DNA of 64,000 nt from Cannabis sativa (taxonomy: Eukaryota; Streptophyta; Magnoliopsida; Rosales; Cannabaceae), in the NCBI RefSeq assembly GCF_029168945.1, contig NC_083602.1, forward strand, positions 77,892,600-77,956,599. Direction: 5' to 3'. The notes below the pieces were generated by a model. It ran no database searches. It was not told where the DNA came from and saw only the letters and a program-made list of their open reading frames with translations. The position numbers and the translations under genes are program-made. Positions 260 to 60,215 of this stretch are shown piece after piece (the stretch's first letter is position 1; every line of letters begins with the position of its first letter).

Positions 260-2161
260 TGTTATGTTTTATGCCCTAAATAAAACTCTTTACAATCTGA
301 TTAGTTATCAATATAAGAAATTTGAAGTGATTGATGTTTGCATGAATTTTACATGCTAATGGTTTAATATGTTTATTACATTCATACACACAAAATCAGT
401 TAAATCCAGATCATATGTTTATTCACAATTACAGTATCGTCAACACAGTGGAATGTGATTGTGATCATATGAATCAAAAGTTTTGGTCCCTGTTTCATCA
501 GTGTTATTGGATTTACACTAATGTGATAATCAGCGATGATGTGTACTTACACTTGGAGTAAGTGTTATGTTCTTTCCAGGACATTAGTAAAGTATACTAG
601 TTTCGAATGTATGGAGTATACATTGGACTGGACCGATATTGCAACTAAGTTAAGATATTACAAACTTACCGTTATACATATCTTTCCAAGTCAATATCAG
701 TAGTTGATCTTAAGATTAAAAGAATCTAAATCCTGATATGCTTAGGCTCAACTCAGGAGTGTTATTCATGTTCTTAGATTTATTAGTTAAGCCTACTTTC
801 GGGTCAGGGTGATACGTATATTTTGGGAACATGATAGTATGATTGAGTGGGAGTGCTGAACATAAATATGGAATCTATAGCTTCTACTGGTGTATAGAAG
901 TTAAGTGATGATTCCCTTTGAGCTTAGCAAATAGAAGTAAATGGATGAGCTCTTGTTTAACTGACTAATTATTAGATCACTAAACACCATTTACAGGTAG
1001 CTAAGTGTTTTAAGGGGCAAAATACATTGAGGGGTGAGAACGGTAAAGAAATCCCATCTCGATGTAAATCATCTGTATAGAGGATCTTTAAATCACAATA
1101 AGATTATAACAATGGTTAAATGAGATAGTATATTGGTATCGTGAAACATACAATATGCTCTATATAAGTCTGAGAGTGCAATTCTAAGTTCTAAGAGTGG
1201 ATTCAACGAAGAATTAATAAGTAGGAATTTACTTGGTAAATTTGGTTCACTTATTGGAAGCTCAGCATATAGATCCATGGTCCCCATTCTAGTTGAGAAC
1301 ATTCTGCTTGTAAGACTCATTAATTGATTCGTGATTGATCAATTATAATTCTAAAGTTAGACTATGTCTAATTTTATGAATTTTCACTAAGCAGGGGTGA
1401 AATTGTAAGGAAAAGAGTTTTCTAGGTTTATTTATTTATTAATAGACTTTATATGTCTAATTAATAATTAAATTAAATGACAATATTATTTAATAATGTA
1501 TTTTAGTTATTAAATAATTAGTTTTGGCATTTAAAAGGTTAGAATTGGAAAATTGGCATTTTTGAGAAAATAGAGATAAAATTTGATAAAATTGCAAAAT
1601 TAAGTGAGGCCCAATAACACCATATGGCCGGCCACTTAAATAGATTTTTCAAATTAATATTTTCATTATTTTAATGCCAAATAAATCCTAACCTAAACCT
1701 AGTAGTTGCCTATAAATAGAAAGTGATGGCTCAGTCACAACACATGCTTTCATTAGCTTTCTGACAGAATTTTCTCTCTTCAGAAAAACTGAGCCTTCCC
1801 TCACTTTCTACCTTGGCCGAAATACCTCTCTCTCTTTTCCCTTCATCTTTTTCGTGACCCTAGTGAAAGAGTAAGTGCCCACACACAGCAAGCAGTAACT
1901 CAATCATAGATTGGAAGACTGTGAATGATCAAAGCTTGAAGAAGAAGGAGATTCGGGCTCAGATCTTGATTATACTCTGCTACAGAAAGGAATCAAGGGT
2001 TAGAGATCTGAGTGGAAGGAGACATTTATTCCGCTGCATCAATGTAAGGTTTTCTTAACTTTATATGTGTTTATTTTATCGTTTTAGAAAGTTCATATTT
2101 AGGATGTTTAAACAACATACTTGTGAGGAGATCTAAGATCCTGGTAAAATAATTCCCAACA
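260..2161 (+). repeat. Copia-1 5' LTR
   Basis: 1902-bp direct repeat of 8560-10612. It begins TGTTATGTTTTATGCCC (3' copy TGTTAGG...) and ends CCCAACA. A TATAAATA box sits at 1711-1718, followed by a short CT-rich stretch around 1828-1845. The minus strand of 1093-1320 can be read as a 75-residue frame that is identical in the other LTR, showing how little the two copies have diverged; I do not regard that frame as a gene. Confidence 0.95.
1711..1718 (+). promoter_or_regulatory. TATA box of Copia-1 5' LTR
   Basis: TATAAATA, about 450 bp before the LTR end, in a segment (CTATAAATAGA) that recurs in every LTR of this family here. It probably sets the start of the genomic transcript. Confidence 0.7.
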
Positions 2162-2163
2162 AC

Positions 2164-2176
2164 TGGTATCAGAGCC
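2164..2176 (+). other. Copia-1 primer binding site
   Basis: TGGTATCAGAGCC two bases after the LTR end, complementary to the 3' end of plant initiator Met-tRNA, the usual minus-strand primer of Ty1/copia elements. Confidence 0.9.
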
Positions 2177-2748
2177 ATGGTAATTGATTTACTTACATGT
2201 AATTTGGACTTTAAAACGATTGTTTGTATGTTCTTTGGATGGTATCATGTTGTATTGAGTGTTATTTGATGATTGATTGATGATTGTGAAATTTTCGTGA
2301 AAAATAATTGTGATTTCGTTTCTGGAATTTTTTTTATTTGATAGTATGGAAAAAGTTAAGCAAGTTAGCCTTTTACAGAACTCAATTTGGATTTTATTTG
2401 AATTAGTTATGATTTTTTGAAGATTTGACAAAATCGGGGATGTGCTGATAGTTTCCTGCGATCGCAGAACTGTCCGTACAGTTTCGAATTTTTTCTATTT
2501 TCTTCAATTTTTCATACTTTTTCATGGAATTAACTTCCAATTTTTTGTATGGTTTTGTATATATACTATTACTATTCCTAATTCAATTCTAATTATCATT
2601 TTGAATTAATTTAATATTTTTTTTAATTTAATTCAAGATATTAGTGTAATTTGAATTTGAATAGAATTAGTATTTATCCTTTTGCTTAAAAATCTATCTT
2701 ATTTTTAAAATTTGATTATATTTTTTTTAAATTTAAGGTCAGATCTTT

Positions 2749-2880
2749 TTAAGATATTTATAATATCTTTCAAGATATTTAAAAATATCTTATCTTTTAA
2801 GATATTTATAATATCTTTTAAAGATATTTAAAAATATCTTATCTTTCAAGATATTTTAAAAATATCTTATCTTTTAAGAT
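2749..2880 (+). repeat. Array of AT-rich palindromes in Copia-1 leader
   Basis: Tandem near-palindromes of the type AAGATATTTATAATATCTT and AAGATATTTAAAAATATCTT recur at least four times with short spacers. Each can fold into an 8-bp stem with a 3-4-base loop. They do not code for protein. Confidence 0.7.
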
Positions 2881-3324
2881 TTTTTAATTAAATCTTTTTA
2901 GATATTTTGACCTTATTTAAATTTAAAATAAGATATTTATAATCATGTAATTTTAAATAGATATAAGATATTTTGCTAACTTTTGAATTTTGTTATTTTA
3001 TTTATTTAAATTAAATTTAAAAATCTGAAAAGATATTTTATTTATCTTTTCTATTTTTATTTAATTTTTATTTTTAAAATAACATTTAATTTTTAAAAGT
3101 AGTTAGCAAATTTTGAAATGATATTTAGGTTGGTTGAAACCTAATTTTTCAAAATAGTAGGTTTAATTTTAAATATTTATTTTTTAAATAATTTTGATTT
3201 TTAAATTTATTTTTATTTTATTTTCGAAATGAATTAAATTTTTTAATTTTTTTTTTATTTTTCGAAATTAATTAATTTTTTTTTTAATTATTTATTTTTT
3301 GAAATTATTTAATTAAAATTAAAT

Positions 3325-3890
3325 AAATCCTACTTCCAACTATCCAGCTAACCTTGTTGCAGGAGTATGTGTTTTTAGCTTGTGTGTAAGTTTTAAAAAC
3401 CTATTATTACTTGATTGCAAATAGCCATGGTTACTTTTTGCCAGATCTAATGATCTGATGGCTCTCTTGGTCAAGTTAATAATTTGTAACGGGTATATTT
3501 TACAATCTTCTTTCATCTGTGTATGACCTAGCAACATGATAGGATCCATCCAAAGTGTGCCTGTGTGAGCCTATATGTTTATTTTATTATATAGATGCAT
3601 ATAGGTTGTTGTTAAATAAAATGTCACACCATGATAGATTTTATTTAGGTCCATTTAGTTTTTGGACCTATTCAATTAATAACAGCTATTCATTTTAAGG
3701 TTAAATTCCTCTCTTTTGGGCCTTGTGTGAGAGTTGGGAGCCATAGAAGTGGGTACGACATACTGAACCCAACACCCCCTCACATGAACTACCCCAATTG
3801 TGAAGGCCCATTTGCCTGATTTGAATAACTGTACTAGGTTAATTACATTAGTTTGACCTACTAAAATTGAATTAGCAACATACTTAATTT
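3325..3890 (+). other. Conserved leader module A (Copia-1)
   Basis: Island of mixed composition inside the AT-rich leader. It contains recognisable blocks (AGATCTAATGATCTGATGG, CTAGCAACATGATAGGATCC, GAAGTGGGTACGACATACTG) that recur in the same order in Copia-2 (about 17110-17650) and Copia-3 (about 53021-53590). No frame is conserved, so the constraint, if any, is on RNA or DNA. Confidence 0.75.
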
Positions 3891-5339
3891 TTAAAATATA
3901 TGAAAATTAATTTTCATTTTAATATTTTAAAGTTAATTTTTAAGAAAAACACTTTTAGTTTAGATATTATTTCTAGATAAACTATTTGTATTTTTCTTGT
4001 ATTTAATTAAATATAGAATTTTAACTAACTAAGATTCTTTCTGGAGCTTATTTAATTAAATATTCCTATTTAAGTTATAAATTAGTTGTATCAACTGATT
4101 TTTCTTAACTAACTTAAATTTGAATATTTGATTTAAATTTTAAATCAAGTTGAGGAATCTTAGGCATTAGTTATTAAAGATTCTTAAGATATTTTTTTTA
4201 AGTTAATATCTTTTCAAATATTAACTTGAAATGGAATATCTTAGATATTTTTTTGGTTAATATCTTTTCAAATATCAACTTCAAAAGATATCTTCAAATT
4301 AAGTGGTTACAACTTAATTTGTGATATTTAATTAAATCTAGATTTGAAATTATTTAAGTTTTAGATTTTTTCTATATAACTTAAATTAGATATTTTTCAA
4401 ATTTTTAAAAGATACTTAGTCAAATAAGATATTTTCTAGATAGTAATTTCTAGACTACTTATTATTTCTAATATTTAAATAGGAAAATATTATACTTTTG
4501 TGAAATTAATTATTTAAATAATTAATTTTGGTACAATTTTATTAAGTTTATTTTTCCTAGTATTAAATAGAAATTAATAATTAAGCCTTATCTACACTTA
4601 ATTATTTATTTCTTGAATTTAATACATTTAATTAACTTGAAAAATCTAAATATTTAAGTTGATTTTCATCATGATACTTAAATATTTATTGATTTTTCAT
4701 GACACTTAATTAAATAGAAAATTATTTTTAGGTTGAAATTTAATTTTTCAACTTAAATTTAAATAATTTTCAATATATATATTTTTCTTTATTTTATTAA
4801 TCAATTTCGAAATTTGCATTATAATTATGCAATATTTTCGAATTTTTTTTGAAATATAGATTGAGTTGTAAATTAATTATTTATTTTAATTAATTCTTGG
4901 ACCAACTCAAGTCAATGATTTTTTCATTTAATTGATTAATTTAAAATGAATTTAAAATATATATATTATTAGAAATTGAATTAACTAGTCAAAAGAATAT
5001 CTAGATAGGTGATATTTTTGCTTGAAGTATTTCTTTTCTATTTTTATTATTTTCGAAAATTGTATTGTTTTTATACTTAATTTTCGAACTCAATAAATAT
5101 ATTCTCAAAGGAAATTTTTAAGTTGCTAATTATTTATTTAATTCAACTTAAATTAATTTCCTTAATATTTATATTTAAGATTACTACTAAGATGGAAATA
5201 ATTAATTTTATTTCAATCACCATCTAAGTATAATTTTATAAATATTATATTAAATTCTTATTTTTGAATTTTAATTCTTAAATAGAATTTAATGAGATTT
5301 ATTTATTAGAATAATAAAGAAAATACATTTTAAACAATG

Positions 5340-5715
5340 AGCTTTATTATTATTTAGATATTCGATCTCCATTGTGGGTTTTACACCGCGTTTGTTTTAG
5401 TGAGTAATCCTCCCTAATGGAGGAACGTTCATTAGCAATTTCGCACCGTTTAATCTCGCATGATAAGTGGTTTGTAAGTGTTTTATATGGTATAGATCAC
5501 CCTAATGGTGGCGACCATATTTGACTTGCAAATTGCGAAACAATGGTAGAAGCTCATGGGATAGAATAGCCTTGACTCTCGCCTAAACGGGACAACGCTG
5601 GATTCTGATCTTGATCGAATAAAAGGTTGCTAGAATGTTTAACATTTTAGATGAGCTGACAACTCTATTCAATGGATGGTAGCTTTGACTCTCGCCTAAA
5701 CGGGACACTGATATC
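5340..5715 (+). other. Conserved leader module B (Copia-1)
   Basis: Block directly upstream of gag with two small hairpins whose loops read CTAAT (5409-5423, CCTCC/GGAGG stem; 5498-5510, CACC/GGTG stem). It also holds two copies of the 22-mer starting TTGACTCTCGCC and ending AAACGGGAC, at 5572-5593 and 5685-5706. Copia-2 (18836-19200) keeps almost the same sequence. Copia-3 (54318-54700) keeps the repeated motif and the outline. It is not coding. Confidence 0.8.
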
Positions 5716-5884
5716 AGTTTGTTTAAAACCTTGGAAATTATTTAGGATTGAATTTTTTAAGTATTTTCTCATATCATTCCTACTTGCTATGTGCTTATAA
5801 TTTCTGAATTGATTGTGTGTGTTAAACCATTATTAATTTCTATTTGTTGATTTCTATTATTTTGTAGTATCCCCTTTTGTCAAA

Positions 5885-6742
5885 ATGAATCCCATGTTAT
5901 CACTGTTGACTGAAAATAAGCTGAATGGATCTAACTTTAATAAATGGAATGAAAACATTAATATTGCTCTCATAGGAGAAAGTGCCTTGTTTGTTTTAAC
6001 TGAGCCGTCACCTGAAGTGCCTGGGGATAATGCATCCAAAGCTGTGAAAGAAAAGTATGAGCGTTGGCAGAAAGCAAATGACAAAGCTCTATACTTTATG
6101 CTTTCTAGCATGGTTGACACCCTCAAAACTCGGTTTTCTAAAACTGAAAAGGCTGATGAAGTTATGACGAAGTTAAATGAGCTATTCGGTAAGGCATCAC
6201 TTCAGTCACGCTTTGACGCGACGAAGAAGTACATTAACGCACGGATGGAACCTCATCAAAACGTGCGTGATCATGTTCTCCTCATGTCCAGTTATTTCCA
6301 AGAAGCCCAGGATCATGGTGCTGAAATGGACAGTGCTACTCAAGTTAGTCTTATCTTGAATAGCCTGACTCCAGCATTTCTACCATATACATCAAATTAT
6401 GTCATGAATAAGAAGGAAATTGACTTTCATGAATTAGTCAATGACCTTCAAACTTATGAAAATTTGATTGGAGGACCCAAGAAGAAAGGGAGTAAACCTC
6501 ATCCTGGTAATGGTAATGGGACGATAAAACCTGAAGCAAATGTTGCCTCTGCTTCAAAGCCCAAATCAAAGAAGAAGTGGCACAACACCAAGAAGCGAAC
6601 AAAAGCCAATAAAAAGGCTGTTCCTTCTGGTGATGCTACACTTAAAGGAAAGTGTTTCTACTGCAATGAAAAAGGTCATTGGAAACCCCAGTGTCCTAAA
6701 CTTCTTGCAAAGAAACAAAGTATTTCCATTAATAAACTTTAA
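5885..6742 (+). CDS. Copia-1 Gag (nucleocapsid polyprotein), intact
   Basis: 285-residue open frame, the only undamaged retroelement gene in the window. Residues about 1-60 form the gag N-terminal module (NKLNGSNFNKW). Residues 60-200 are the UBN2/Retrotran_gag_2-type capsid region, with QSRFDATKKYINARMEPHQN. A basic Lys-rich linker follows (about 200-250), then one CCHC zinc knuckle CFYCNEKGHWKPQC at about 257-270. The frame stops 15 residues after the knuckle. In autonomous copia elements protease follows in the same frame; here the protease start survives only as a short scrap (about 6755-6790). Gag coats element RNA into virus-like particles in the cytoplasm. The ATG follows module B and a T-rich stretch ending TTTTGTAG. 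Family resembles Tork/Angela-type copia (tentative). Confidence 0.9.
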   Translation: MNPMLSLLTENKLNGSNFNKWNENINIALIGESALFVLTEPSPEVPGDNASKAVKEKYERWQKANDKALYFMLSSMVDTLKTRFSKTEKADEVMTKLNELFGKASLQSRFDATKKYINARMEPHQNVRDHVLLMSSYFQEAQDHGAEMDSATQVSLILNSLTPAFLPYTSNYVMNKKEIDFHELVNDLQTYENLIGGPKKKGSKPHPGNGNGTIKPEANVASASKPKSKKKWHNTKKRTKANKKAVPSGDATLKGKCFYCNEKGHWKPQCPKLLAKKQSISINKL

Positions 6743-8550
6743 AAGTTTTAGTGAATTATTATCCAATTGGATTTATGATTCTGGACTAAACTTTGTTTAT
6801 TTTCTTCTTCTGATTGGCCAAGCTACTTGAACTCAATTGAGTTGATCAGAAAGCTGGACCAAGGGTGAAATCGTCCAGATGAAGATGAAGCTCTTCAATT
6901 TTTGAATTAATTGTTTTAGTTTAAAGACAATTTGGATTTCAAATTTTAGTTAGGGATATTTATCCCTGTTTCTCTCATATTGTTGCAATACATTTTTTTT
7001 ATTAATAAAGTTTTATTTTTTTCGAAATTCACTATTGCAAATTATGAGATTGAGCTTCATTTATTTTATCTTCATCAATTATTACCACATTATATTTGTA
7101 TGTTTGTATGTGTAAGTGTTTTTATTATTGATGCAAATTCTATAATATTTACAACTCTTCATAGAGTTATATTATATAAACACTAGAAATTATTTCTATG
7201 TTTATCAATAATTGTTAATTCTCAAACAATCATTAAGAATTTGTTTAATAAAAGGATCTTATGATCTGATAGGGGTGGAGAAAAGTTAAGAAAACTATGC
7301 AGTTCAACGATCTTTTATATCTAATGAACTCTGGATAGTATTCAACTCCACATAAACTCTATCACACTAAGAGAATCATGATCTTTACAACCTTTAGGGG
7401 TGGATCATAATCTCTATATACTTAGGGGTGGAGGTTATCCATAGTACCCTATATGTATATTCTTAGGGGTGGAGTCTATTCCACAATTCCCTATGAAACA
7501 CATATCTTGTTTAAACATAGAAGTAATATAATGAGTCAGCTATTGTCAATATAAATTCTTGATCTTGATTGTATGTTCCATTTCGTTTATACTGTTGTAA
7601 GTAAAAGTATGATACCTTTGAAAGTTCTTTGTTAAAGTTTCACACTACCTTAATTGAGTGGGAGAATTTTAAAGTTCTATACCCATCTTCATTAGGTTGA
7701 TAATTGTGATAGGTACTTAAGAACACTACTGAAAAGCAAATCTAACCATTCACATGGATAGGTATAGCTTATCAGAATTATGAGAATAAGATAAAGAACT
7801 CTAGTTCAGTCCATTCGAATGACTTGAACCAAGAATTCTTAATCCTCATAAAATTTTATGGTATCTTAATCTTGATTACTTTATCTCTGGCATGTATTTT
7901 TCACTTCAAATACTAGTCTGCTATGTTGATGACTTAGTCTTGACTTAAAGTTTTAAGACTAATACAAAAGTCACAACTAGGTAACTCTCTAAACAATCAG
8001 AGGTTAAAAGTATTATTTAACCAGACATCTGCTATTGAGTGGGAGCTATCTGAGATGTAATCAAATAGGGAACATTAGAAGATATTCAAGAAGGATTTAT
8101 GTAAGTGATCTATATGTCAGATATTAAGGAACTGTGTATCAGTTGTCTTTGTATCACACCATCTAATTTCGAAATTCTATAAGATGGTGCTTACTTTGGG
8201 GGTGGAGGAATTATTGTATAATAATTCAAGCTCCACCAGAGAAGAACTATAACTTGGTCTATTCGAAAATACCAGAAAGTTATATCACTGAAGAAAAGTC
8301 TACACTGTATTATCTCAATTACATATTTTAAAATATGAGAGATATGTCCTCTGTTAATTCAGATGTACTTTTAAAACAGTAAAGATTTCAGTATCCCTTG
8401 ATGAGTAAAGCATATAGTAAAGGATGTTTCATAAAGAGTTTTTATGGACTAGTTTCCAGAAGTTTGGGTGGATTCAAATATACTACACTTGATCTGAAGA
8501 TCAAGACATCAGATTGACCTATTTGCGCAGTTTGTTTTATATTAGTGCAA
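6743..8550 (+). pseudogene. Copia-1 pol remnant, heavily deleted
   Basis: About 1.8 kb where roughly 3.5 kb of pol is expected. Scraps match Copia-3 pol in order: protease start (6755-6790), the integrase DRGG region (around 7257-7310), and the RNase H segment with TTTGGGGGTGGAGG (about 8196-8210). There are many stops and no frame. Three spaced copies of AGGGGTGGA between 7395 and 7475 suggest local duplications of one pol segment. No function is left. Confidence 0.75.
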
Positions 8551-8559
8551 GTGGGAGTT
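8551..8559 (+). other. Copia-1 polypurine tract
   Basis: GTGGGAGTT immediately before the 3' LTR, within TTAGTGCAAGTGGGAGTT, which is identical in Copia-1, Copia-2 and Copia-3. Presumed plus-strand primer site. Confidence 0.75.
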
Positions 8560-10612
8560 TGTTAGGTTTTATGCCCTAAATAAAACTCTTTACAATCTGA
8601 TTAGTTATCAATATAAGAAATTTGAAGTGATTGATGTTTGCATGAATTTTACATACTAATGGTTTAATATGTTTATTACATTCATCACACAAAATCAGTT
8701 AAATCCAGATCATATGTTTATTCACAATTACAGTATCGTCAACACAGTGGAATGTGATTGTGATCATATGAATCAAAAGTTTTGGTCCCTGTTTCATCAG
8801 TGTTATTGGATTTACACTAATGTGATAATCAGCGATGATGTGTACTTACACTTGGAGTAAGTGTTATGTTCTTTCCAGGACATTAATAAAGTATACTAGT
8901 TTCGAACGTATGGAGTATACATTGGACTGGACCGATATTGCAACTAAGTTAAGATATTACAAACTTACCGTTATACATATCTTTCCAAGTCAATATTAGT
9001 AGTTGATCTTAAGATTAAAAGAATCTAAATCCTGATATGCTTAGGCTCAACTCAGGAGTGTTATTCATGTTCTTAGATTTATTTATTAACCCTACTTTCG
9101 GGTCTGGGTGATACGTATATTTTGGGAACATGATAGTATGATTGAGTGGGAGTGCTGATCTTAAGATTAAAAGAATCTAAATCCTGATATGCTTAGGCTC
9201 AACTCAGGAGTGCTATTCATGTTCTTAGATTTATTTATTAACCCTACTTTCGGGTCTGGGTGATACGTATATTTTGGGAACATGATAGTATGATTGAGTG
9301 GGAGTGCTGAACATAAATATGGAATCTATAGCTTCTACTGGTGTATAGAAGTTAAGTGATGATTCCCTTCGAGCTTAGCAAATAGAAGTAAATGGATGAG
9401 CTCTTATTTAACTGACTAATTATTAGATCACTAAACACCATTTACAGGTAGCTAAGTGTTTTAAGGGGCAAAATACATTGAGGGGTGAGAACGGTAAAGA
9501 AATCCCATCTCGATGTAAATCATCTATATAGAGGATCTTTAAATCACAATAAGATTATAACAATGGTTAAATGAGATAGTATATTGGTATCGTGAAACAT
9601 ACAATATGCTCTATATAAGTCTGAGAGTGCAATTCTAAGTTCTAAGAGTGGATTCAACGAAGAATTAATAAGTAGGAATTTACTTGGTAAATTTGGTTCA
9701 CTTATTGGAAGCTCAGCATATAGATCCATGGTCCCCATTCTAGTTGAGAACATTCTGCTTGTAAGACTCATTAATTGATTCGTGATTGATCAATTATAAT
9801 TCTAAAGTTAGACTATGTCTAATTTTATGAATTTTCACTAAGCAGGGGTGAAATTGTAAGGAAAAGAGTTTTCTAGGTTTATTTATTTATTAATAGACTT
9901 TATATGTCTAATTAATAATTAAATTAAATGACAATATTATTTAATAATGTATTTTAGTTATTAAATAATTAGTTTTGGCATTTAAAAGGTTATAATTGGA
10001 AAATTGGCATTTTTGAGAAAATAGAGATAAAATTTGATAAAATTGCAAAATTAAGTGAGGCCCAATAACACCATATGGCCGGCCACTTAAATAGATTTTT
10101 CAAATTAATATTTTCATTATTTTAATGCCAAATAAATCCTAACCTAAACCTAGTAGTTGCCTATAAATAGAAAGTGATGGCTCAGTCACAACACATGCTT
10201 TCATTAGCTTTCTGACAGAATTTTCTCTCTTCACAAAAACTGAGCCTTCCCTCACTTTCTACCTTGGCCGAAATACCTCTCTCTCTTTTCCCTTCATCTT
10301 TTTCGTGACCCTAGTGAAAGAGTAAGTGCCCACACACAGCAAGCAGTAACTCAATCATAGATTGGAAGACTGTGAAGGATCAAAGCTTGAAGAAGAAGGA
10401 GATTCGGGCTCAGATCTTGATTATACTCGCACGTAGAAAGGAATCAAGGGTTAGAGATCTGAGTGGAAGGAGACATTTATTCCGCTGCATCAATGTAAGG
10501 TTTTCTTAACTTTATATGTGTTTATTTTATCGTTTTAGAAAGTTCATATTTAGGATGTTTAAACAACATACTTGTGAGTAGATCTAAGATCCTGGTAAAA
10601 TAATTCCCAACA
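8560..10612 (+). repeat. Copia-1 3' LTR, with internal duplication
   Basis: 2053 bp, starting TGTTAGG and ending CCCAACA. It matches the 5' LTR with few differences but is 151 bp longer because bases 9005-9156 are repeated at 9157-9308. The target duplication AAAAT follows at 10613-10617, and Tat-1 gag resumes at 10618. Confidence 0.95.
9005..9308 (+). repeat. 152-bp tandem duplication in Copia-1 3' LTR
   Basis: Two adjacent units, 9005-9156 and 9157-9308, each starting GATCTTAAGATTAAAAG and ending GAGTGGGAGTGCT, nearly identical. The 5' LTR has one unit only. Confidence 0.9.
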
Positions 10613-10617
10613 AAAAT

Positions 10618-13390: not shown

Positions 13391-13407
13391 TAGCACATAA
13401 AGTAATA

Positions 13408-15872: not shown

Positions 15873-15874
15873 AC

Positions 15875-15887
15875 TGGTACCAGAGCC
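15875..15887 (+). other. Copia-2 primer binding site, one mismatch
   Basis: TGGTACCAGAGCC; differs from the initiator-Met-tRNA match in Copia-1 by one base (T to C at the sixth position). Confidence 0.8.
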
Positions 15888-21902: not shown

Positions 21903-21911
21903 GTGGGAGTT
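21903..21911 (+). other. Copia-2 polypurine tract
   Basis: GTGGGAGTT directly before the 3' LTR, in the same 18-base context as the other two copia elements. Confidence 0.75.
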
Positions 21912-23764: not shown

Positions 23765-23769
23765 CTACT

Positions 23770-26525: not shown

Positions 26526-26529
26526 TCCA

Positions 26530-34161: not shown

Positions 34162-34297
<136 letters not shown>

Positions 34298-34392
34298 TCG
34301 GCAATAGAGAGAAAGTGAGAGGCTCAATTTTCTGAAAGGCAGTTTCTTGGATTACTGAATAACTTCTTATTTTGGTGTGAGCCATCACTTTC

Positions 34393-34400
34393 TATTTATA
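34393..34400 (-). promoter_or_regulatory. TATA box of the solo LTR
   Basis: TATAAATA on the minus strand, in the same context as the other LTRs; it points towards lower coordinates, through the CT repeat. Confidence 0.6.
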
Positions 34401-44564: not shown

Positions 44565-44621
44565 CCAAGTTTTTTAGCAAGATTTTTATTAAGCCAATTA
44601 TTATGGACATCCAAGGGGGAG

Positions 44622-49100: not shown

Positions 49101-49992
49101 CGCTCTTAATGATTCATTTTCCGATCTCATATCTCCTGAAATCGAGGCTAAGTTGGATGCTTGGATTAGAAAAGGATTGCTAAAATATCCTAGGTGATTA
49201 TTTTCTTTATCCTGTTTTTATTTTTTTATTTGATTGCATTTCTTTTTATTTTGCCAATTTTTGAATTCAATATTGTTTCTTTGTCGTTTGTTTTTTGATA
49301 TAGGCCTTACAATGTTTACGAGGATGGTGCGAAAAAAATTTCCCCGGGGTTCAGATTAGGTGTAGAATATGTTGAAGATAAAACCTTGTTTTATCATTTG
49401 TCTTGCTGTGACATGTTTATCAATGACTCGGTAATATTTTTTTTCCTTTTAAAATTTTTTATAGTTGTTTTATCATTGATTTTAAGTTTAGTTACTGTTA
49501 TTAAGTTTTTGTAATATTTGTTCACTTTTTTTTGTGTTTCTTTATTGTGTTGTTTCAGCATATGAACACTATCTTCTATTATCTTTGAAAAAAGGGAAAT
49601 ATTCTTCTGCTGTAACAGTGAATTTCGCAACAACTGACTGCCTTTTCGATGATTCCATTCAATCCTTATACCACCAATTCTACAAATCCAAGGCAATGAA
49701 AACAAAGATGTCTCACATCCATGCTGCTCACCCAATAGCGCATTATATAATAGGCTTTCAAATTCCTTGTTCTAAGGCTTGGTATGAAGCCGATCATGTC
49801 CTATTCATCATAAATCTTAAGAAAGAAAGCCATTGGGTTTTTGGCCATCTTGATTTGAATGAGGGGATTATATTTCCTTATAATTCTTCGAGGACTGCCA
49901 AAATGAATTCTGCAGTAAATAATGCAATGAAGGCTTATTCTGTTTTGCTCCCTTTGTTTTTGATCTCCTTGGATTTTGGAAGAATAGGTCTC
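46140..49992 (+). pseudogene. DUF1985/Ulp1-like C48 cysteine protease gene, first part
   Basis: Exons judged from splice signals: 46140-46393 (basic, nuclear-like: KRERAPPKKKSK), 46989-47820, 47939-48259, 48356-48724 (Asp-rich run), 48850-49193, 49304-49430 and 49559 onward, cut by Copia-3 at 49992. DUF1985-like region about 47131-47500 (EFWAKVAGRCIRFSNEEFYL). The last exon starts the Ulp1 fold: VTVNFATTDCLFDDSIQSLY, catalytic His in ESHWVFGHLDL (codon 49831). The expected Asp of the YDS motif is Asn (PYNS, codon 49882). In-frame stops at 47500, 47990 and 48209. One base seems lost near 49976, because the downstream exon continues in another frame. Members of this family resemble SUMO-deconjugating proteases; their role in MULEs is unproven. 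Confidence 0.7.
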
Positions 49993-51881
49993 TATTGGGT
50001 TTTATGCCCTAAATAAAACTCCATTTCAATGTAATCTATTTTATTCAACATCAATAAAGAAACAGAAGTATTTTTCATTCATCTGTGTATGTTTTGGTTC
50101 ACCTTATCAATTGCTTGTCTATTTGGTTTATAAATTCATCTGAAACCCTTTTCACATACTTGATCCTGTTTATTGTGTTGTCAACACTTTGGAAAGTAAA
50201 CATGACTATGTGAATAAAGTGTCCTAGATTTATCAGACACAGGGTTTTACTGCTATGATAATCTACAACAAGAGTTTACTTGCATTTGGAGAAATGCTAT
50301 GTTCTTTCCAAAACATTGGTTAAAGTAAAGCTCAGGTTGGATGCAAGGAGTATGCATCGGAAGGGACCGATATTGAACTTTGACTTAGATTTATTAAAAC
50401 TACCGTAAAATCTATTCAAGTCAAGATCGCCTAGTTGATCCTAGATCAAATGATCTTAATCCTGTTATGATTAGGCTCAATGTTAAGAGGCTATTCATGT
50501 TCTTTGATTTGTTAGTTAAGCCTACTTTTAGGTCAGGGTGATACGTACATTTTGGGAACACGGTAGTGCAATTGAGTGGGAGTGCTAACATAAACATGGA
50601 ATCTATAGCTTCTATCTGGCAAATAGTAAGCAAAGGATGATCTCCTTCGAGCTTGACCAAACGAAAATAAATGGTGGAGTACTCATTTCACATAAGCTGA
50701 AATATCATTTATACGGGGTCAAGTGTTTTAAGGATAAAATACATAGTAGGGTGTAACGGTAATCTAATCTCGTTACAGTGTAGATCATTCATATATAGGA
50801 TCATTGATCAAATTAGGATTATAACAATGGATAACTAATGATGTGTCTATATGGTGGAACATATAGAGCATTCTATATACTGAGAGTGCAATTCTAAGTT
50901 CTATGCGTGGATTCAACGAAAAATTAATAAGTCAGTGAATTTAGGTTATAAATTCTTGATCTGCTTATTGGAAGCTCGGTTATATAGACCCATGGTCCCC
51001 CCACTAGTTGAGATAATATTGCTTGTAAGACTCATATAATTGGTTTTGATTAATCAATTATAATTCTCAAATTAGACTATGTCTATTTGTGAATTTTTCA
51101 CTAAGTAAGGGCGAAATTGTAAAGAAAGAGTTTTAGGGGCATATTTGTTAATTATGATACTTTGTATGGTTCAATTAATAAATATGATAAATGACAATAT
51201 TATTTAATAATTATTTATAGTTATTAAATAGTTAGAATTGACATTTAAATGGTTGAATTAGAAAATAGGCGTTTTTGAGAAAATCAGATGCAAAAGTGAT
51301 AAAACTGCAAAATTACAAAAAGTGAGGCCCAAATCCATACTGCCATGGCCGGCCACTTTTATAGGAATTATCCTATGATATTTTCATTATTTTAATGCCA
51401 AATAATTCAAACCTAACCCTAGTGGAATGCTATAAATAGATAGTGAAGGCTTCAGGAAAATAACACTTTTCATTCAGAAAAACCTGAGCCTTCTCTCTCT
51501 ATACTTGGCCGCCCACTCTCTCTCTCTCTTCTTCCTTAATATTTCAAAATACTTAGTGATTAGAGTAGTGCCCACACATAGCAAGTGATACCTCAATCAT
51601 AGTGAGGAAGATCGTGAAGAAAGACTTTCAGCAAGAAGGAGTTTCAACACTAAAGAATCAGAGAAAGAGATCCAGGTTCAGATCTTGATAATACTCTGCG
51701 ACAGAAAGGATACAAGGGTTAGAGATCTGAACGGAAGGAGTCATATTATTCCGCTGCACCCAATGTAAGGTTTACTAAACTTTATATGTGTTTATTTCAT
51801 CGTTTTAGAAAGTTCACGTTTAAGGTATTCATCAACATACTTGTGAGTAGATCTAAGATCCTGGTAAAATAATTTCTAACA
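49993..51881 (+). repeat. Copia-3 5' LTR
   Basis: 1889 bp. Starts TATTGGG (the G of the terminal TG has mutated; the 3' copy has TGTTGGG) and ends TTCTAACA. TATAAATA at 51431-51438, followed by a CT repeat. Confidence 0.95.
51431..51438 (+). promoter_or_regulatory. TATA box of Copia-3 5' LTR
   Basis: TATAAATA, same context as the other family LTRs; partner at 59765-59772. Confidence 0.65.
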
Positions 51882-51883
51882 AC

Positions 51884-51896
51884 TGGTCTCAGAGCC
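51884..51896 (+). other. Copia-3 primer binding site, one mismatch
   Basis: TGGTCTCAGAGCC; one base different (A to C, fifth position) from the initiator-Met-tRNA match. Confidence 0.8.
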
Positions 51897-52149
51897 ATGG
51901 TAATTGATTTTCTTGCAAGAAATTTGGACTTAAAACGATTGTTTGATGTTTTGGATGGTATCATGTTGTATTGAGTGTTATTTGATGATTGATTGATGTT
52001 TGTGAATTTTCGTGAAAAGTAATTGAATATTTGTTTCTGGAATTATTTTTATTGGATAGTATGGAAAAAATTAAGCAATTTACTTTTTTATAGAACTCAA
52101 TTTTAATTTAATTTGAATTAGTTATGATTTTTTGAAGTTTCGAAAAATA

Positions 52150-52340
52150 TCGGAGTCGTGCAACTACACACGCGCGCGGGCACCAGGCTTGTCCCTCGAA
52201 CAGCACGCGCGCAGACAAGAATTTTGTCTGAATTCCCAGCTTCTGCCCGCGGAAATCATGCTGGAACCCCCCTGCGCCGAGAAGCCTCGGCTGTGCACTC
52301 CCCTGCGCGCGCGGACGAGTATGCACAGCATACCGTTCGT
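52150..52340 (+). other. GC-rich insert in Copia-3 leader
   Basis: About 190 bp rich in CGCGCG motifs (ACACGCGCGCGGGCACC, CACGCGCGCAGACAAG) in an AT-rich background. Copia-1 has only a short stretch at the equivalent place (2430-2490). The overlapping frames on both strands here have no motif. Confidence 0.75.
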
Positions 52341-54033
52341 ACAGCTCGCAATTTTTTCGTTTTTCTTCAATTTTTCATGTTATTTCATGGATTTAACTTT
52401 CGATTTTTTGTGTAGTTCTATATTTAGACATTTACTATTCCTAATTCAATTCTAAATATCATAATTAAATTAATTAATATTTTTTTAATTTAATTCATGA
52501 TACTAGTGTAATTTGAATTTGAAAATAGTAAATATCTATCTTTTTGCTTAATTATCTATCTTATTTTTAAATTTGATTATATATTATCTTATTTTTAAAT
52601 TTAAGGTCAGATATTAAATTTTTTAAATTTATTTATTTTTTAAATAATTTGACCTTATTTAAATTTAAAATAAGATAACTATAATCATGTAATTTTAAAT
52701 AGATGTAAGATATTTTGCTAATTTTTAAATTTTGTTATTTTATTTATTTAAATTAAATCATAAAATCTGAAAAAGATATTTATTTATCTTTTTTAATTTT
52801 TATTTATAAAATAACATTAAATTTTTTAAAGTAGTCAGCAAATTTTGAAATGATATTTAGGTTGGTTGAAACCTAATTTTTCAAAATTGTAGGTTTAATT
52901 TTAAATATTATTTTATTAATTTCGAAAATACATAAATTTTATTTTATTTTATTATTTTTCGAAAATAATTTTTTTTTTATTTAATTAATTTTTCGAAATT
53001 ATTTATTTAAAATTAAATAAATCCTACTTCCAACTATCCAGCTAACCTTGTTGCAGGAGTATGTGTTTTAGCTTGTTTGTAAGTTTTTATAACCTATTAT
53101 TGCTTGATTGCAAATAGCCATGGTTAACTTGTTGACAGATCCAATGATCTGATTTTAACTCATGGCTCCCTTGGTCAAGTAAATAATTTGTAACAGGTAT
53201 ATTTACAATCTTCTTTCATCTGTGTATGACCTAGCAACATGATAGGATCCATCCAAATTGTGTGCCTATGTGAGCCTATGTCTTTAATTTTATTATAGAT
53301 GCATATAGGTTGTTGTTGCTAAATAAAATATCATAGTTTTTGATAGATTTTATTTAGGCCCATTTAGTTTTTGGGCCTATTCAATTAATAACAGTTGTTC
53401 ATTTTAAGGTTAAATTCCTCTCTTTTGGGCCTTGTGTGAGAGTTGGGAGCCATAGAAGTGGGTACGACATACTGAACCCAGCACCCCCTCACATGAACCA
53501 CCCCAATTGTGAAGGCCCATTTGCCTGATTTGAATAACTGTACTAGGTTAATTAAATTAGTTTAACCTAATAAAATTGATTAGCAACATAATTAATTTCA
53601 TTTATTTTGAAATTAATTTAAGAAAACCATAGTTTAAAGAATTTTATATTCTAAGCTAAACTATATGTATTTTCTTGTATTTAATTAAATAAAGAATTAT
53701 AACCATCTAGATTCTTTCTGAAGCTTAATTTAAATTTTTCATTAAATATTCCTATTTAAGTTGATATTTAGTTATCTATAACTAATCAACTTAAATCTGA
53801 ATATCTTTTGGATTTAAAATTTCAAAATTAAGTTGATGAATTTTAGGCATTGGTTATTAAGATTCTTTAGATATTTTTTAAGCTGATATCTTTTTTAAAT
53901 ATCAACTTAAAATGGAATATTTTCAAATTAAGTGGTTACAACTTAATTTAAATTTAATTAAGTCTAATTTGAAAGATATTTAACTTGATTTTTTAGATTC
54001 TTCTAAAAACAACTTAAACAAGATATTGTCAAA

Positions 54034-54273
54034 TTTGTTCCATTATATTCGAATTTATTTTTCGAATTTAAATAATAATTGAAATTTAATTAAAGTTGAT
54101 TTTTTATTTAAACCAACTTTAATTTGTAATTTTTCATTATTATAATATGGAACTTGTTCGATATTTATTCGAATTTATTTTTCAAATTTAAATAATAATT
54201 GAAATTTAATTAAAGTTGATTTTTTATTTAAACCAACTTTAATTTGTAATTTTTCATTATTATAATATGGAAC
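54034..54273 (+). repeat. 120-bp tandem duplication in Copia-3 leader
   Basis: 54061-54120 and 54181-54240 are identical except for one base; the whole unit spans about 54034-54153 and 54154-54273. Confidence 0.92.
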
Positions 54274-54317
54274 AGATGATTAAATAAAATACATATTTTT
54301 TTTTTAAATAATGAGCT

Positions 54318-54700
54318 TTAATCAAAAGATATTCGATCTCCATTGTTGGTCTTACAATAGTTAAATATTTTCAATATAACCTCGAGACGCTAGACTTCGT
54401 CCCCCTATGGATGGTTATTCGTTGAACACTTTTAACACCGTAAGATTTCAGTTGACAAGTGTTTTGTGAGTTTTCGTCTCTATTAGACTCTCCCCTACGG
54501 TGACTACTTAGAGATAAACTCATAAAACATGAAGCAATGGTGGAAGCTCATAAAATGAGAATAACCTTGACTCTCGCCTACCGGGACAACGTTGGATTCT
54601 CATTTTGATCGAATAAAAGGTTGCTAAAATGTTTAATTTTAGATGAGCTGACTACTCTATTCAACTAATGTTATCTTTGACTCTCGCCTACCGGGACACT
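54318..54700 (+). other. Conserved leader module B (Copia-3)
   Basis: Diverged version of the Copia-1/Copia-2 block. It keeps ATTCGATCTCCATTGTTGG at the left and both copies of TTGACTCTCGCCTACCGGGAC (54567-54587, 54677-54697) about 110 bp apart; the hairpin part is altered (CCCCCTATGGATGG). Confidence 0.7.
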
Positions 54701-54935
54701 GTATTTCATTATGTTGGAAACTTTGGAAAATAAACTATGTTAGATTTAGTATTTTTATAACATATGTGGTTATTTTGTTATTTTCTGAACTTGTGTATGA
54801 ATTTGAACCAAAACCTTACTTTTGTTTTATTGATGTGTTGTAGTGCCAATAACCCTCTTCCCATTCCACTCCTAGTTAATATCTTGGCAATTGAACTTGA
54901 AGTTATAAACTCCTTGTCAGAGTAATACTTCACAT

Positions 54936-57900
54936 ATGCTCACGATGGACATTAAATTCCAGAAAGCAGGTAAGCTGGGAATTGTTCACTCTGAAGAGCA
55001 AATAGTTCATACCTCCATAAATCCTACTATTTCGAGCTTAGTTGAGAAGATAAGAGAAAGTGATTTCACTTCCTCAAGTTATACTTCACAACAAATTGTA
55101 CCATCAAGAACAACAAATCACAAACGAATAAGCAGTGATGCTTTAGTCTTCGAATCATGTGTGTTAGAGAATGATAAATCCATTTGGATTCTTGATTCTG
55201 GGTCTACAAACCATGTAAGTTGTTCGTTACAATTGCTTGAGAATTGGAATTATTTGAAATTCGGAGAGTTGAAACTTAAGGTTGGTAATGGCGAAATGGT
55301 TTCGGTTAGAGCTAGAGGAAAAGCCAAACTCAAGTTTCAAAACAGAATTTTGGAATTAGACAATATCTTATACACGCCAAATTTCAGTAGAAACTTGGTT
55401 TCTGTTTCATGCTTACAATTGCAACAATACAAATTAGATTTTTCGAGTTTCGGTTCTACCATTTCTCGAAATGACATTCAGATTTGTGTTGCATCCATGG
55501 AATAGGGGGTTTATGTTCTTAGACCAGAAACACCATTTGCCCTACATAACAAACTTTTTAAAGTAGCTAAACCTAGAAACCACAAAAAGCAAAAGATCGT
55601 TGATAATAATGAAACATATCTATGGCATTTACGTTTAGGTCATATAGGCTTTGATAGACTCAATAGGCTAACCAAAGACGGTCCATTGAAAAATGTCGTC
55701 TTAGGTGAACTGCCAGTATGCGAGTCCTGCCTAGAAGGAAAAATGACTAAACGTTCTTTCTCTGCAAAGGGAGAGCGTGCCAAACAACCCCTAGGGTTAG
55801 TGCATTCCGATGTCTGCGGACCTTTGAATGTAAAAGCCTGAGGTGGTTATGAGTACTTTGTCACTTTCATTGACGATTACTCTAGATATGGACATATTTA
55901 CCTTATGCATAAGAAATCTGAAACATTTGCAAAGTTTCAGGAATTTCACGCATTGGCTCAAAACCAATTAGGTAAATCATTAAAGATCTTGCGAACTGAT
56001 AGGGGTGGAGAATATATGGATATGCAATTCAAAGATCATTTAATTGAACTTGGAATTGAATCCCAATTAACCGCCCCTAGCACTCCACAACAAAATGGAG
56101 TTGCAGAAAGACGGAATCGCATGCTTTTGGAAATGGTTAGGTCCATGCTTATTTTTTCAACTCTACCTACGTCCTTCTGGGGATATGCAATTCAGATGGC
56201 AACCGACATTTTAAATGTTGTTCCATCTAAATCAATCCCTAAGACACCTTTAGAACTACGGATTGGTCGTACACCTAGTTTACGCCATTACAGAATCTGT
56301 GGGTACCATGCTCATGTCTTAAGAAAGAAAGACGACAAACTTGAGTCACGAACTGAAGTTTGCATGTTTGTCGAAAATTCTAAAGAGACTAGGGGTGGAC
56401 TATTTTATAGTCGCAAGGATGATAAAGTGTTTGTCTCAACAAACGCCACTTTCCTTGAAGATGACTATATTAAGAATTTCAAATCACAAAGTAAAGTAGT
56501 GTTGGAGGAAATGCTTTTAGATATAAGTCCTTCCAATGTTCCGTCCTCTTCCACTCGTGAAGAAGACAATCCCACTCCCTCAGTCGAACCAACTGAGAGA
56601 ACTACTACCAAAGTTCCTGTTCAGAAGATCACCGCTCCTCGTCGTAGTGGGAGGGTTTCAACCAAACCAGCTCGTTATGGCTTGGATGGTGAAATCAATA
56701 TGGTCGTTGGTGACGGTATTGAAGACGATCCATTAACCTATAAACAGGCAATGGCTAGTCCGCAACGGAAACGATGGTCGGCCGGCATGGATTCAGAAAT
56801 GGATTCCATGAAAAAGAACAAAGTCTGGGAATATGTAGACGCACCTGACGACTATCATCCGATAGGATGCAAGTGGGTTTACAAGAAGAAAAGAGGAGCT
56901 GGAGGCGAAGTCGAAACTTTTAAAGCTATACTTGTAGCCAAGGGTTATACCCAAAGAGAAGGCGTGGACTATGAGGAAACTTTTAGTCCTGTTGCCATGC
57001 TCAAATCCATCCGAATTCTTCTCTCCATAGCTGCTGCTTTCGGTTATGAAATCTGGCAAATGGATGTCAAGACTGCCTTCCTTAATGGGGTACTTGAAGA
57101 AACCATCTATATGGAGCAACCAGAAGGCTATGTTCTTCCAGGGCAGGCAAAGAAAGTTTGCAAGTTAAATAGGTCTATCTATGGACTTAAGCAAGCTTCT
57201 CGCTCATGGAACAAAAGGTTTGATGAAATCATCAAGACCTACGACTTTCTTCAGAATGAAGATGAACCTTGTGTTTATCAACTCAAGGAAGACCAAGTAG
57301 TAGTATTCCTGGTCCTTTATGTTGATGACATTTTGATTATTGGAAACAATATCAAGAAAATGAATCACATCAAGGAATGGCTCAACACTCAATTCGATAT
57401 GAAAGATTTGGGTGAAGTAGCCTATGTTCTTGGTATTCAGATTATCAGAAACCGGAAGAACAGATCTCTTGCTCTCTCTCAAACAACCTACATTGACAAA
57501 GTTTTAGAGAGATTCTCCATGAACAACACCAATGGGGAAAACATGCCTTCTAGATATGGTATTCGTCTATCTAAGGAACAGTCTCCAACTGATCCTCAAG
57601 AGATAGAGGACATGGCAAAAATTCCCTATGCTTCTGCAGTTGGAAGTCTAATGCATGCAATGTTATGCACTAGACCTGACATCTGCTATGCAGTTGGAAT
57701 CGTGAGCAGGTATCAGTCAAATCCAGGACAGCAACATTGTAATGCAGTTAAGTATATTCAGAAATACTTAAAGAGTACAAGGAATCTTGTGTTAGTCTAC
57801 AAGGGTGGTGCTTTAAATCCCATAGGCTACACTGATTCGGATTTCCAGGCAAGTCTTGAAGACAGGAAATCTACATCTGGGATGGTGTTTACTCTTGGGG

Positions 57901-58295
57901 GTGGAGCAGTGGTTTGGAGAAGTGCAAAACAAACCGCGATATCGAACTCAACTATGGAAGCTGAATACATAGCTGCAGCCGAAGCTGCTAAAGAACTTGT
58001 CTGGCTAAGAAAGTTCTTCACCAGTATCGGTGTCGTGCCTGGAATGGAAAAGCCTCTGGTCCTACTTTGTGATAATAATAGAGCAATAGCCAACAGTAAG
58101 GAACCTCGAAGCCACAAGAGAAGCAAACACATTGAAAGGAAGTATCACATCATCAGAGAATATGTGGCAAGAGGGGATGTACTAGTTGAGAAAGTGGACA
58201 CAGAAGATAACTTAGTTGATCCATTCACCAAAGTCTTGGCCGTGACTGCATTTGAAAAGCACCGTCAGAATTTAGGATTAATTGATATGTACTGA
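54936..58295 (+). pseudogene. Copia-3 Pol: protease, integrase, RT, RNase H
   Basis: One frame of about 1120 codons with only two stops, TAG 55503-55505 and TGA 55839-55841, both single-base changes. Protease: ILDSGSTNH with catalytic Asp at 55194. GAG-pre-integrase zinc module (WHLRLGH, CESCLEGK, 55620-55745). Integrase with D at 55809, D at 55998 (RTDRGGEY) and E at 56106 (NGVAERRN). RT from about 56800 with AFLNGVLEETIYM and catalytic YVDD at 57318-57329. RNase H with TDSDF, MEAEYIAA and LCDNNRAIA, ending at LGLIDMY (stop 58293-58295). The first ~65 codons match no Gag. The protein would mature and integrate element cDNA. Looks Tork/Angela-like (tentative). Confidence 0.9.
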
Positions 58296-58315
58296 TTAGT
58301 TTTATATTAGTGCAA

Positions 58316-58324
58316 GTGGGAGTT
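58316..58324 (+). other. Copia-3 polypurine tract
   Basis: GTGGGAGTT immediately before the 3' LTR, same context as Copia-1 and Copia-2. Confidence 0.75.
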
Positions 58325-60215
58325 TGTTGGGTTTTAGGCCCTAAATAAAACTCCATTTCAATGTAATCTATTTTATTCAACATCAATAAAGAAACAGAAG
58401 TATTCTTCATTCATTTGTGTATGTTTTGGTTCACCTTATCAATTGCTTGTCTATTTGATTTATAAATTCATGTGAAACCCTTTTCACATACTTGATCCTG
58501 TTTATTGTGTTGTCAACACTTTGGAAAGTAAACATGACTATGTGAATAAAGTTTCCTAGATTTATCAGACACAGGGTTTTACTGATATGATAATCTACAA
58601 AAAAGAGTTTACTTGCATTTGGAGAAATGCTATGTTATTTCCAGAACATTGGTTAAAGTAAAGCTCAGGTTGGATGCATGGAGTATGCATCAGAAGGGAC
58701 CGATATTGAACTTTGACTAAGATTTATTAAACTTACCGTAAAATCTATTCAAGTAAATATCGCCTAGTTGATCCTAGATCAAATGATCTTAATCCTGTTA
58801 TGATTAGGCTCAATCTTAAGAGGCTATTCGTGTTCTTTGATTTGTTAGTTAAGCCTACTTTTAGGTCAGGGTGATACGTACATTTTGGGAACACGGTAGT
58901 GCAATTGAGTGGGAGCGCTAACATAAACATGGAATCTATAGCTTCTATCTGGCGAATAGTAAGCAAAGGATGATCTCCTTCGAGCTTGACCAAACAAAAA
59001 TAAATGGTGGAGTACTCATTTCACATAAGCTGAAATATCATTTATACGGGGTCAAGTGTTTTAAGGATAAAATACATAGTAGGGTGAACGGTAATCTAAT
59101 CCCTTTACAGTGTAGATCATTCATATAGAGGATCATTGATCAAATTGGGATTATAACAATGGATAACTAATGATGTGTCTATATGGTGGAACATATAGAG
59201 CATTCTATATACTGAGAGTGCAATTATAAGTTCTATGCGTGGATTCAACGAAAAATTAATAAGTCAGTGAATTTAGGTTATAAATTCTTGATCTGCTTAT
59301 TGGAAGCTCAGTTATATAGACCCATGGTCCCCCCACTAGTTGAGATAATATTGCTTGTAAGACTCATCTAATTGGTTTTGATTAATCAATTATAATTCTC
59401 AAATTAGACTATGTCTATTTGTGAATTTTTCACTAAGTAAGGGCGAAATTGTAAAGAAAGAGTTTTAGGGGCATATTTGTTAATTATGATATACTTTGTA
59501 TGGTTCAATTAATAAATATGATAAATAAAAATATTATTTAATAATTATTTATAGTTATTAAATAGTTAGAATTGGCATTTAAATGGTTGAATTAGAAAAT
59601 TGGCATTTTTGAGAAAATCAGATGCAAAAGTGATAAAACTGCAAAATTGTAAAAAGTGAGGCCCAAATCCATACTACCATGGCGGGCCACTTTTATAGGA
59701 ATTATCCTCTGATATTTTCATTATTTTAATGCCAAATAATTCAAACCTAACCCTAGTGGAATGCTATAAATAGATAGTGAAGGCTTCAGGAAAATAACAC
59801 TTTTCATTCAGAAAAAACTGAGCCTTCTCTCTCTATACTTGGCCGCCCACTCTCTCTCTCTCTTCTTCCTTAATATTTCGAAATACTTAGTGATTAGAGT
59901 AGTGCCCATACACAGCAAGTGATACCTCAATCATAGTGAGGAAGATCGTGAAGAAAGACTTTCAGCAAGAAGGAGTTTCAGCACTAAAGAATCAGAGAAA
60001 GAGATCCAGGTTCAAATCTTGATAATACTCTGGGACAGAAAGGATACAAGGGTTAGAGATCTGGATGGAAGGAGTCATATTATTCCGCTGCACCCAATGT
60101 AAGGTTTACTAAACTTTATATGTGTTTATTTCATCGTTTTAGAAAGTTCATGTTTAGGGTGTTAATCAACATACTTGTGAGTAGATCTAAGATCCTGGTA
60201 AAATAATTTCCAACA
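58325..60215 (+). repeat. Copia-3 3' LTR
   Basis: 1891 bp, TGTTGGG... to ...TTCCAACA; target duplication GTCTC follows at 60216-60220. Confidence 0.95.

Follow-up and report, generated by a model that had tools for sequence, protein, structure and literature searches.

Gag-only and Pol-only Copia elements in Cannabis sativa suggest a retrotransposon system with split coding capacity

Introduction

A window of 64,000 nucleotides (nt) from Cannabis sativa (contig NC_083602.1, positions 77,892,600 to 77,956,599; by "window" we mean this whole stretch) contains three full Copia elements and one solo long terminal repeat (LTR), all assigned to one family by self-alignment and reading of the element ends. 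One of them, Copia-1, has an intact gag, and another, Copia-3, has a pol frame and no Gag. We consider it probable that both belong to a single Copia LTR-retrotransposon system in which the coding capacity is split, so that Gag and Pol come from different elements. Among the copies scored or read in the 770-Mb assembly that we searched, in which the window lies on contig 2, Gag and the reverse transcriptase (RT)/integrase (INT) enzymes are encoded by different subfamilies with common cis signals.

Cooperation of defective retrotransposons is usually told as the story of one complete element and its dependants. If the split is real, it would show that the genome of an LTR retrotransposon can be maintained in two parts, as in multipartite viruses, and a single plant would offer a place to test packaging rules, the balance of Gag to Pol and the co-evolution of the partners. 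There is also a consequence for annotation: procedures that look for complete transposable elements may take such families for dead ones or label gag as a host gene, which seems to have happened to the closest Cannabis Gag proteins in the database.

Results

A family of elements with gag alone

Copia-1 lies on the forward strand, like all features of the three full elements given below, between two copies of the target duplication AAAAT (255..259 and 10613-10617). Its 5' LTR (260..2161, delimited by self-alignment, with the ends TGTTA...CCCAACA) and 3' LTR (8560..10612) enclose a gag open reading frame (ORF; 5885..6742) of 285 amino acids (aa) that is intact and stops just past the zinc knuckle; a domain search identified Retrotran_gag_2 (E 8e-20) and a CCHC knuckle. 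The pol relic that follows (6743..8541) has no protein-level Pol match: tblastn of this 1.8 kb behind gag gave no match to Copia-3 Pol. At the DNA level, three short pieces align with Copia-3 (29, 41 and 82 columns); one of these corresponds to the DSG site of the protease and another to the end of the polypurine tract. A first-pass annotation of the window had described Copia-1 as an intact 285-residue Gag with a collapsed pol, and these searches bear it out.

All genome searches reported here scored the best candidates only (35-150 out of 9,018-52,720). Reported frames were taken to be matches extended to the nearest outside stops, with internal stops read through; values obtained from single copies in the two Copia-3 Pol searches agree with this reading. 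When the genome was searched with Copia-1 Gag, the best 136 of 11,648 candidates were all 96-100% identical to the query, with frames of 285-323 aa, and 127 of these 136 had no internal stop. Twenty copies were fetched in stretches of 10 kb each, and the same relic lies directly behind gag in every one (20/20), interrupted in L038 by an insertion. Copia-3 Pol remained unmatched in all 20 fetched relics, the one weak match, in L036, falling in the flank ahead of the 5' LTR. The gag ORF ends at the same position in 24 distinct copies (the 20 fetched ones, L016, L017, L019 and Copia-1). In Copia-1 and the fetched copies, LTRs surround gag alone and pol domains are missing, the arrangement by which a TR-GAG element is recognized; the founding paper on TR-GAG elements reportedly dates from 2015. 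In 16 of the fetched copies the leader ahead of gag could be traced as far as the primer site; in the other four it is broken off or extends beyond the fetched stretch.

The two LTRs of these elements differ little, with a divergence K of 0.0024-0.0159 in the 15 datable copies of the 20 fetched (L023 over 446 nt only); the dating left out L028, whose left LTR piece seems to derive from a separate insertion, as well as four copies that did not offer two usable pieces. The gag-only layout is a conserved state, that is, a family. Its closest database relatives are Gag proteins of Cannabis sativa that are 97-98% identical to Copia-1 Gag, and among 35 Gag sequences placed in a tree, the 12 Cannabis rows group together (support 100/100), next to Gags of hop. 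The underlying protein-database searches admitted sequences 0.55-1.75 times as long as the query, and a long Cannabis polyprotein detected by way of its Gag could therefore not appear in the tree.

The gag-only pattern extends to a second Gag type, 74% identical to the first: the best 132 of 12,003 candidates all have frames of at most 336 aa, and in nearly all of them the same in-line TGA occurs close to where the query ends. Two pairs of such copies (G000:C7:27486645/27494696 and C7:52253166/52261170) lie 8.0 kb apart on one strand, as in LTR-sharing tandems. Such spacing would hardly accommodate a full pol downstream of gag.

A family of elements with Pol and no Gag

Copia-3 is flanked by the target duplication GTCTC (49988..49992 and 60216-60220) and bounded by LTRs at 49993..51881 and 58325..60215, of which the 5' copy starts with TA and the 3' copy with TG. 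Its pol frame (54909..58295), which corresponds to a 1128-aa stop-to-stop frame in intact relatives, is interrupted by in-frame stops at 55503 and 55839 and contains protease-side, integrase and RT domains in the Copia order; Gag was not found in this element. The placement of integrase (residues 293-393 of 1128) ahead of RVT_2 (637-880), the TG...CA ends and the 5-bp duplications that flank Copia-1, Copia-2 and Copia-3 identify the elements as Ty1/Copia. The earlier description of Copia-3 as a pol frame without Gag therefore stands, with its two stops added, as does that of clean target duplications and closely matching LTRs: the Kimura two-parameter (K2P) distance within LTR pairs is 0.0117 for Copia-1 and 0.029 for Copia-3, and 0.0225 for Copia-2.

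A genome search with an 817-aa piece of Copia-3 Pol yielded, among the best 55 of 40,892 candidates, copies of 93-100% identity. The commonest frame (15 of the 55) is 1128 aa long and is the Copia-3 frame that begins at 54909; the longest is 1181 aa, and the matched part is free of stops in 12 of the 55. With a 198-residue N-terminal query, the best 150 of 9,018 candidates all start at residue 1-3, in frames of at most 1128 aa. Four pol-only copies, picked for being open, were fetched; three have frames of 1128 aa and one of 1125 aa. In all four the leader stands directly ahead of pol; three copies show 1.3 kb or more of it, and L043 its last 69 bp. No Gag was found by tblastn in the four copies or by Pfam in the two scanned. 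The elements combine intact 1128-aa pol frames and the lack of a Gag frame with a leader and, as read in Copia-3, a primer site common to a Gag-making element, which is the BARE2 type of organization. Over 761-762 nt, the LTR divergence of three fetched copies is 0.0066, 0.0066 and 0.032. A separate lineage is represented by the first eight RVT_2 loci of the genome that we looked at (L001-L008), whose identity to the 817-aa piece, the larger one of Copia-3 Pol, is 31-43%.

Pol without Gag is likewise a conserved state and a family, and both layouts have been mobile recently, the lowest LTR divergence being 0.002 for gag-only and 0.007 for pol-only elements.

A third type, and the search for complete copies

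A natural 1332-aa Gag-Pol protein, P0029, is 69% identical to Copia-3 Pol and served as a probe for complete elements. No complete copy appeared among the best 35 of 52,720 candidates, none of which aligns with the probe from end to end: the alignments begin at residue 120-123 of the probe in 34 of the 35 and at residue 156 in the remaining one. The commonest stop-to-stop frame is 1245 aa (20/35) and the longest 1268 aa, and 12 of the 35 have no stop in the match. One copy of the 1245 type was read, over 751 nt around the frame start and 201 nt past the frame end. The latter stretch, with the polypurine context and the LTR start, is 91% identical to Copia-3, and the part of the leader that was covered matches the leaders of Copia-1, Copia-2 and Copia-3 at 75-87% in the longer pieces. 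Soon after an acceptor-like site comes an ATG, followed by about 20 residues and then by apparent Gag from about residue 120. At its start, the 1128-aa frame still looks like a degraded remnant of Gag. It seems that the N-terminal half of Gag disappeared first from the Pol side and that the 1128 type then lost the remainder as well, although the direction of this change is our inference. The two classes outlined by the first-pass annotation, gag-only and pol-only, are both present; what that picture lacked is this third type, in which the Gag attached to Pol lacks the N-terminal half.

Neither an enzyme donor nor an autonomous sister with full gag and pol was found among the best 55, 35 and 150 candidates scored in three Pol or Gag-Pol searches. 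In the scored lists that were compared, which excluded the 150 N-terminal matches, there is no Gag match within 10 kb of a Pol match, the nearest pair being 11.1 kb apart. Copia frames longer than 1250 aa do exist in the genome (at least 20 of 150 listed, judged by frame length), so long frames are visible to the method. We also considered gag and pol placed in different frames of one element; this arrangement was unseen in the 20 of 20 gag and 4 of 4 pol copies read. A further Copia family, which scores about 275 bits against RVT_2, has 1032 aa as its commonest frame, with a few copies at 1388 aa, and may likewise have a separated Gag.

Common cis signals and a putative intron

The LTR ends, the polypurine tract and the leader are common to the read copies of all three kinds. 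The 18 nt ahead of the 3' LTR, TTAGTGCAAGTGGGAGTT, are identical in Copia-1 (8542..8559), Copia-2 and Copia-3 (58307..58324). The same 18-nt context is present in 14 of 16 printed gag copies, the remaining two having been printed out of register, and in the single 1245-type copy read. The primer binding site of Copia-1 (2164..2176), TGGTATCAGAGCC, which we take to be of the initiator-Met tRNA type, has its counterpart in Copia-3 at 51884..51896. Across the window elements the site is closely similar, with ACTGGTATC, ACTGGTACC and ACTGGTCTC ahead of AGAGCC; beyond the window it was read in gag-only copies, Copia-3 representing the pol side. The first-pass annotation had listed LTR ends, primer site, 18-base polypurine context and leader modules as common to Copia-1 and Copia-3, and all of these recur here, the primer site with small changes.

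Positions 4-6 of the primer site vary (TGGTAT, TGGCCT, TGGTCT or TGGTAC before CAGAGCC; window 2162-2176, 15873-15887 and 51882-51896, and L020-L039), and the TGGCCT variant occurs in 11 of the 15 datable gag copies. Reverse transcription is expected to rewrite the primer site from the tRNA.

Between primer site and coding region lies a long AT-rich leader (2180..5867 in Copia-1, 51900..54843 in Copia-3), in which the two elements have common modules of 79-85% identity. The Copia-1 leader begins with a donor-like ATG followed by GTAATT and ends with the acceptor-like TTTTGTAG; the Copia-3 leader ends with the acceptor-like TGTTGTAG. Measured over 2162-5884, the leader region of Copia-1 has a GC content of 0.22 and contains 47 ATGs, with 0.39 for the GC content of gag. 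ATG followed by GTAAT stands directly past the primer site in the three window elements and 16 printed gag copies, and the leader closes with TTTGTAG where gag follows (20 of 21 copies) and with TTGTAG where pol follows (five of five). By these marks the leader looks like an intron, the putative removal of which would bring gag or pol near the cap. In one gag copy, L022, a leader stretch of about 1 kb is present in four tandem copies (positions 1-5660 of the locus).

The motif TTAGGGGTGGA, with at most one mismatch, has 12 matches in the window compared with 0.9 expected (7269-7473, 8196, 20122-20567, 21490, 55999, 56389 and 57895). Copia-1 and Copia-2 retain it in their decayed pol, in part apparently at sites that encode Gly-Gly in intact pol, and it might be an internal polypurine tract. 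The repeated motif AGGGGTGGA of the relics was considered as a possible second polypurine tract; some of its copies seem to coincide with Gly-Gly codons of intact pol.

Signatures of selection on gag and pol

Across 24 copies, the mean ratio of nonsynonymous to synonymous polymorphism per site (pN/pS) of gag is 0.197; it is 0.11 for variants present in at least two copies and 0.40 for singletons. The relic of 20 copies, divided into artificial codons in the three frames, gave ratios of 0.59-0.78 when variants were shared and 0.60-0.85 when they were single. Shared variants occur in 43 gag columns, of which 33 are third codon positions. In pol, the ratio lies at 0.24-0.52 in comparisons among four copies and at 0.25-0.27 when three of them are compared with Copia-3. 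These substitution patterns indicate purifying selection on both gag and pol.

Discussion

A possible division of labour

No examined copy contains both Gag and Pol, and the two families therefore probably need each other to move. A cycle can be proposed in which gag-only elements, with an intact gag ahead of a long-dead pol relic, and pol elements, with pol domains that either lack Gag (1128 aa) or are joined to an N-terminally halved Gag (1245 aa), would both rely on related LTRs for transcription. Splicing would probably remove the long AT-rich leader and so place gag or pol close to the cap. Gag of the gag-only elements would build the particles; Pol of the pol elements would enter them and copy and integrate the RNAs of both kinds. 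Separate Gag elements could supply the excess of Gag that particles require, and elements like Copia-2, without an intact frame, would ride along.

A stricter version, which we put forward tentatively and hold to be somewhat less likely true than false, is an obligately two-part (segmented) LTR retrotransposon: the species would have no complete copy, Pol would enter particles without a Gag-Pol fusion, and the Gag:Pol ratio would be set by copy number and expression. Entry of Pol into particles without such a fusion is familiar from foamy viruses.

Relation to known systems

Partial systems of this kind have been described. In Arabidopsis, the TR-GAG element AT5TE33540 of ATCOPIA63 has two LTRs and a single gag ORF, lacks pol, and transposes in ddm1 plants (PMC8704663). 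A potentially complete member of that family, AT3TE48480, is reported in the same source, whereas none was found among the scored Cannabis copies, and the Cannabis gag-only elements, unlike the TR-GAG case, have a partner pol family without Gag. In barley, BARE2 is unable to produce Gag but has retained pol; BARE1 particles package BARE2 RNA, and BARE1 splices its own RNA in favour of Gag (PMC3735527). As presented there, BARE1 is complete and BARE2 lacks only the start of gag, in contrast to the Cannabis Gag donor, which is without pol altogether. The packaging of BARE2 RNA in BARE1 particles and the transposition of a gag-only element in Arabidopsis provide, as far as these accounts go, a precedent for each half of the cycle.

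Among wheat elements, RLG_Cereba and RLG_Quinta involve a Gag-encoding family that lacks RT and integrase and has the key cis signals of its enzyme donor (PMC11302176), and Wilma, Sabrina and WHAM likewise include gag-only partners of a complete element (PMC9744471). Both groups are Gypsy with a complete enzyme donor, whereas the Cannabis elements are Copia. The closest precedent for a full split that we found is wheat Fatima, in which one subfamily keeps RT and INT and others keep gag and protease, and for which protein supply across subfamilies was suggested (PMC6097303). As described in that source, Fatima is Gypsy with the protease on the Gag side; the Cannabis system is Copia, with the protease on the Pol side and a recurring Pol frame that is free of Gag. 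The Cannabis split would be stricter than the published partnerships, and our searches of the open-licence literature showed no report of such a split in Copia elements or in Cannabis.

Alternative explanations

Several observations speak against a split system as the full account. The second Gag type was read as frames alone, with its LTRs and flanks unread. Stops occur in the match of 43 of the 55 scored Pol copies, as against 9 of the 136 Gag copies, and of the four pol-only copies with a date, two (Copia-3 at 0.029 and L042 at 0.032) are older than all 15 dated gag-only copies; the pol-only family may accordingly be fading rather than serving as the main enzyme source. The first Met of the 1128-type frame, delimited from stop to stop, is at residue 10, which makes the start codon ambiguous, and upstream stops in Pol copies hide any gag frame farther up. 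Since copies were picked by protein similarity to Copia-1 or Copia-3, pN is biased downwards; even so, the third-position excess in gag is hard to explain without selection. That Gag and Pol act in trans is deduced from sequence, an unrelated complete Copia family could be the enzyme source, a rare complete copy could escape the scoring of best candidates, and the 1245 type, which retains part of Gag, might be self-sufficient.

These last points lead to two rival accounts. A complete autonomous master, rare, unassembled, diverged or from another Copia family, could move both kinds as semi-autonomous passengers, in the manner of Wilma/Sabrina/WHAM or Cereba/Quinta. Its appeal lies in the published partnerships (PMC11302176, PMC9744471), in searches that covered the best 35-150 of 9,018-52,720 candidates, and in the frames above 1250 aa that other Copia families keep in this genome. 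Yet the best 35 matches to P0029 were nothing but Gag-truncated relatives, the single one read having an LTR of the Copia-1/Copia-3 family, and pol of the family without Gag shows purifying selection, which a passenger would not need. Plant Copia elements in general have similar cis signals, which suits a master from outside the family. We regard such a master as unlikely, though it is the rival to which we give most weight. Clearly less probable is that the 1245 type itself is the autonomous master, self-sufficient with a short Gag, on which the gag-only and 1128-type elements depend. The prevalence of the 1245-aa frame (20/35 scored, 12/35 stop-free in the match), the ATG of its own behind the leader in the copy read and the 91% identity of its 201 nt to Copia-3 all fit this idea; nevertheless, with alignments that start at residue 120-123 (34/35) or 156 (1), about 100 N-terminal residues of Gag seem to be lost, and strong selection on a full Gag in the gag-only family would be odd if a short one sufficed.

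The plain alternative named by the first-pass annotation was that Copia-1 and Copia-3 are two chance deletion derivatives of one parent, dead on arrival and part of no system. The two stops in Copia-3 pol and the dead pol of Copia-1 are what it would lead one to expect, but each layout occurs in tens to hundreds of scored copies, with the same junctions wherever these were read, signs of selection and recent insertions, and we consider this account extremely improbable. The same annotation had named beforehand what would support a split, namely conserved copies of the gag-only and of the pol-only kind in large number, evolving under purifying selection, with complete copies lacking, and this is what was observed among the scored copies.

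Other features of the window

The third full-length element, Copia-2 (14020..23764), is flanked by the duplication CTACT and has LTR ends like those of the other two; it gave no gag match, and its pol is decayed, with no intact frame. It appears to be nested in a Gypsy element, the frames of which break off near 14043 and resume near 24160.

The ~152-bp tandem duplication in the 3' LTR of Copia-1 (9004-9316) has no equivalent in the 5' LTR and so probably arose after insertion. The solo LTR of the same family (33842..35844, minus strand, duplication GTGCT) is 86-89% identical to the Copia-1 5' LTR across the aligned parts, and its interior contains short tandem repeats (34157-34321, minus strand).

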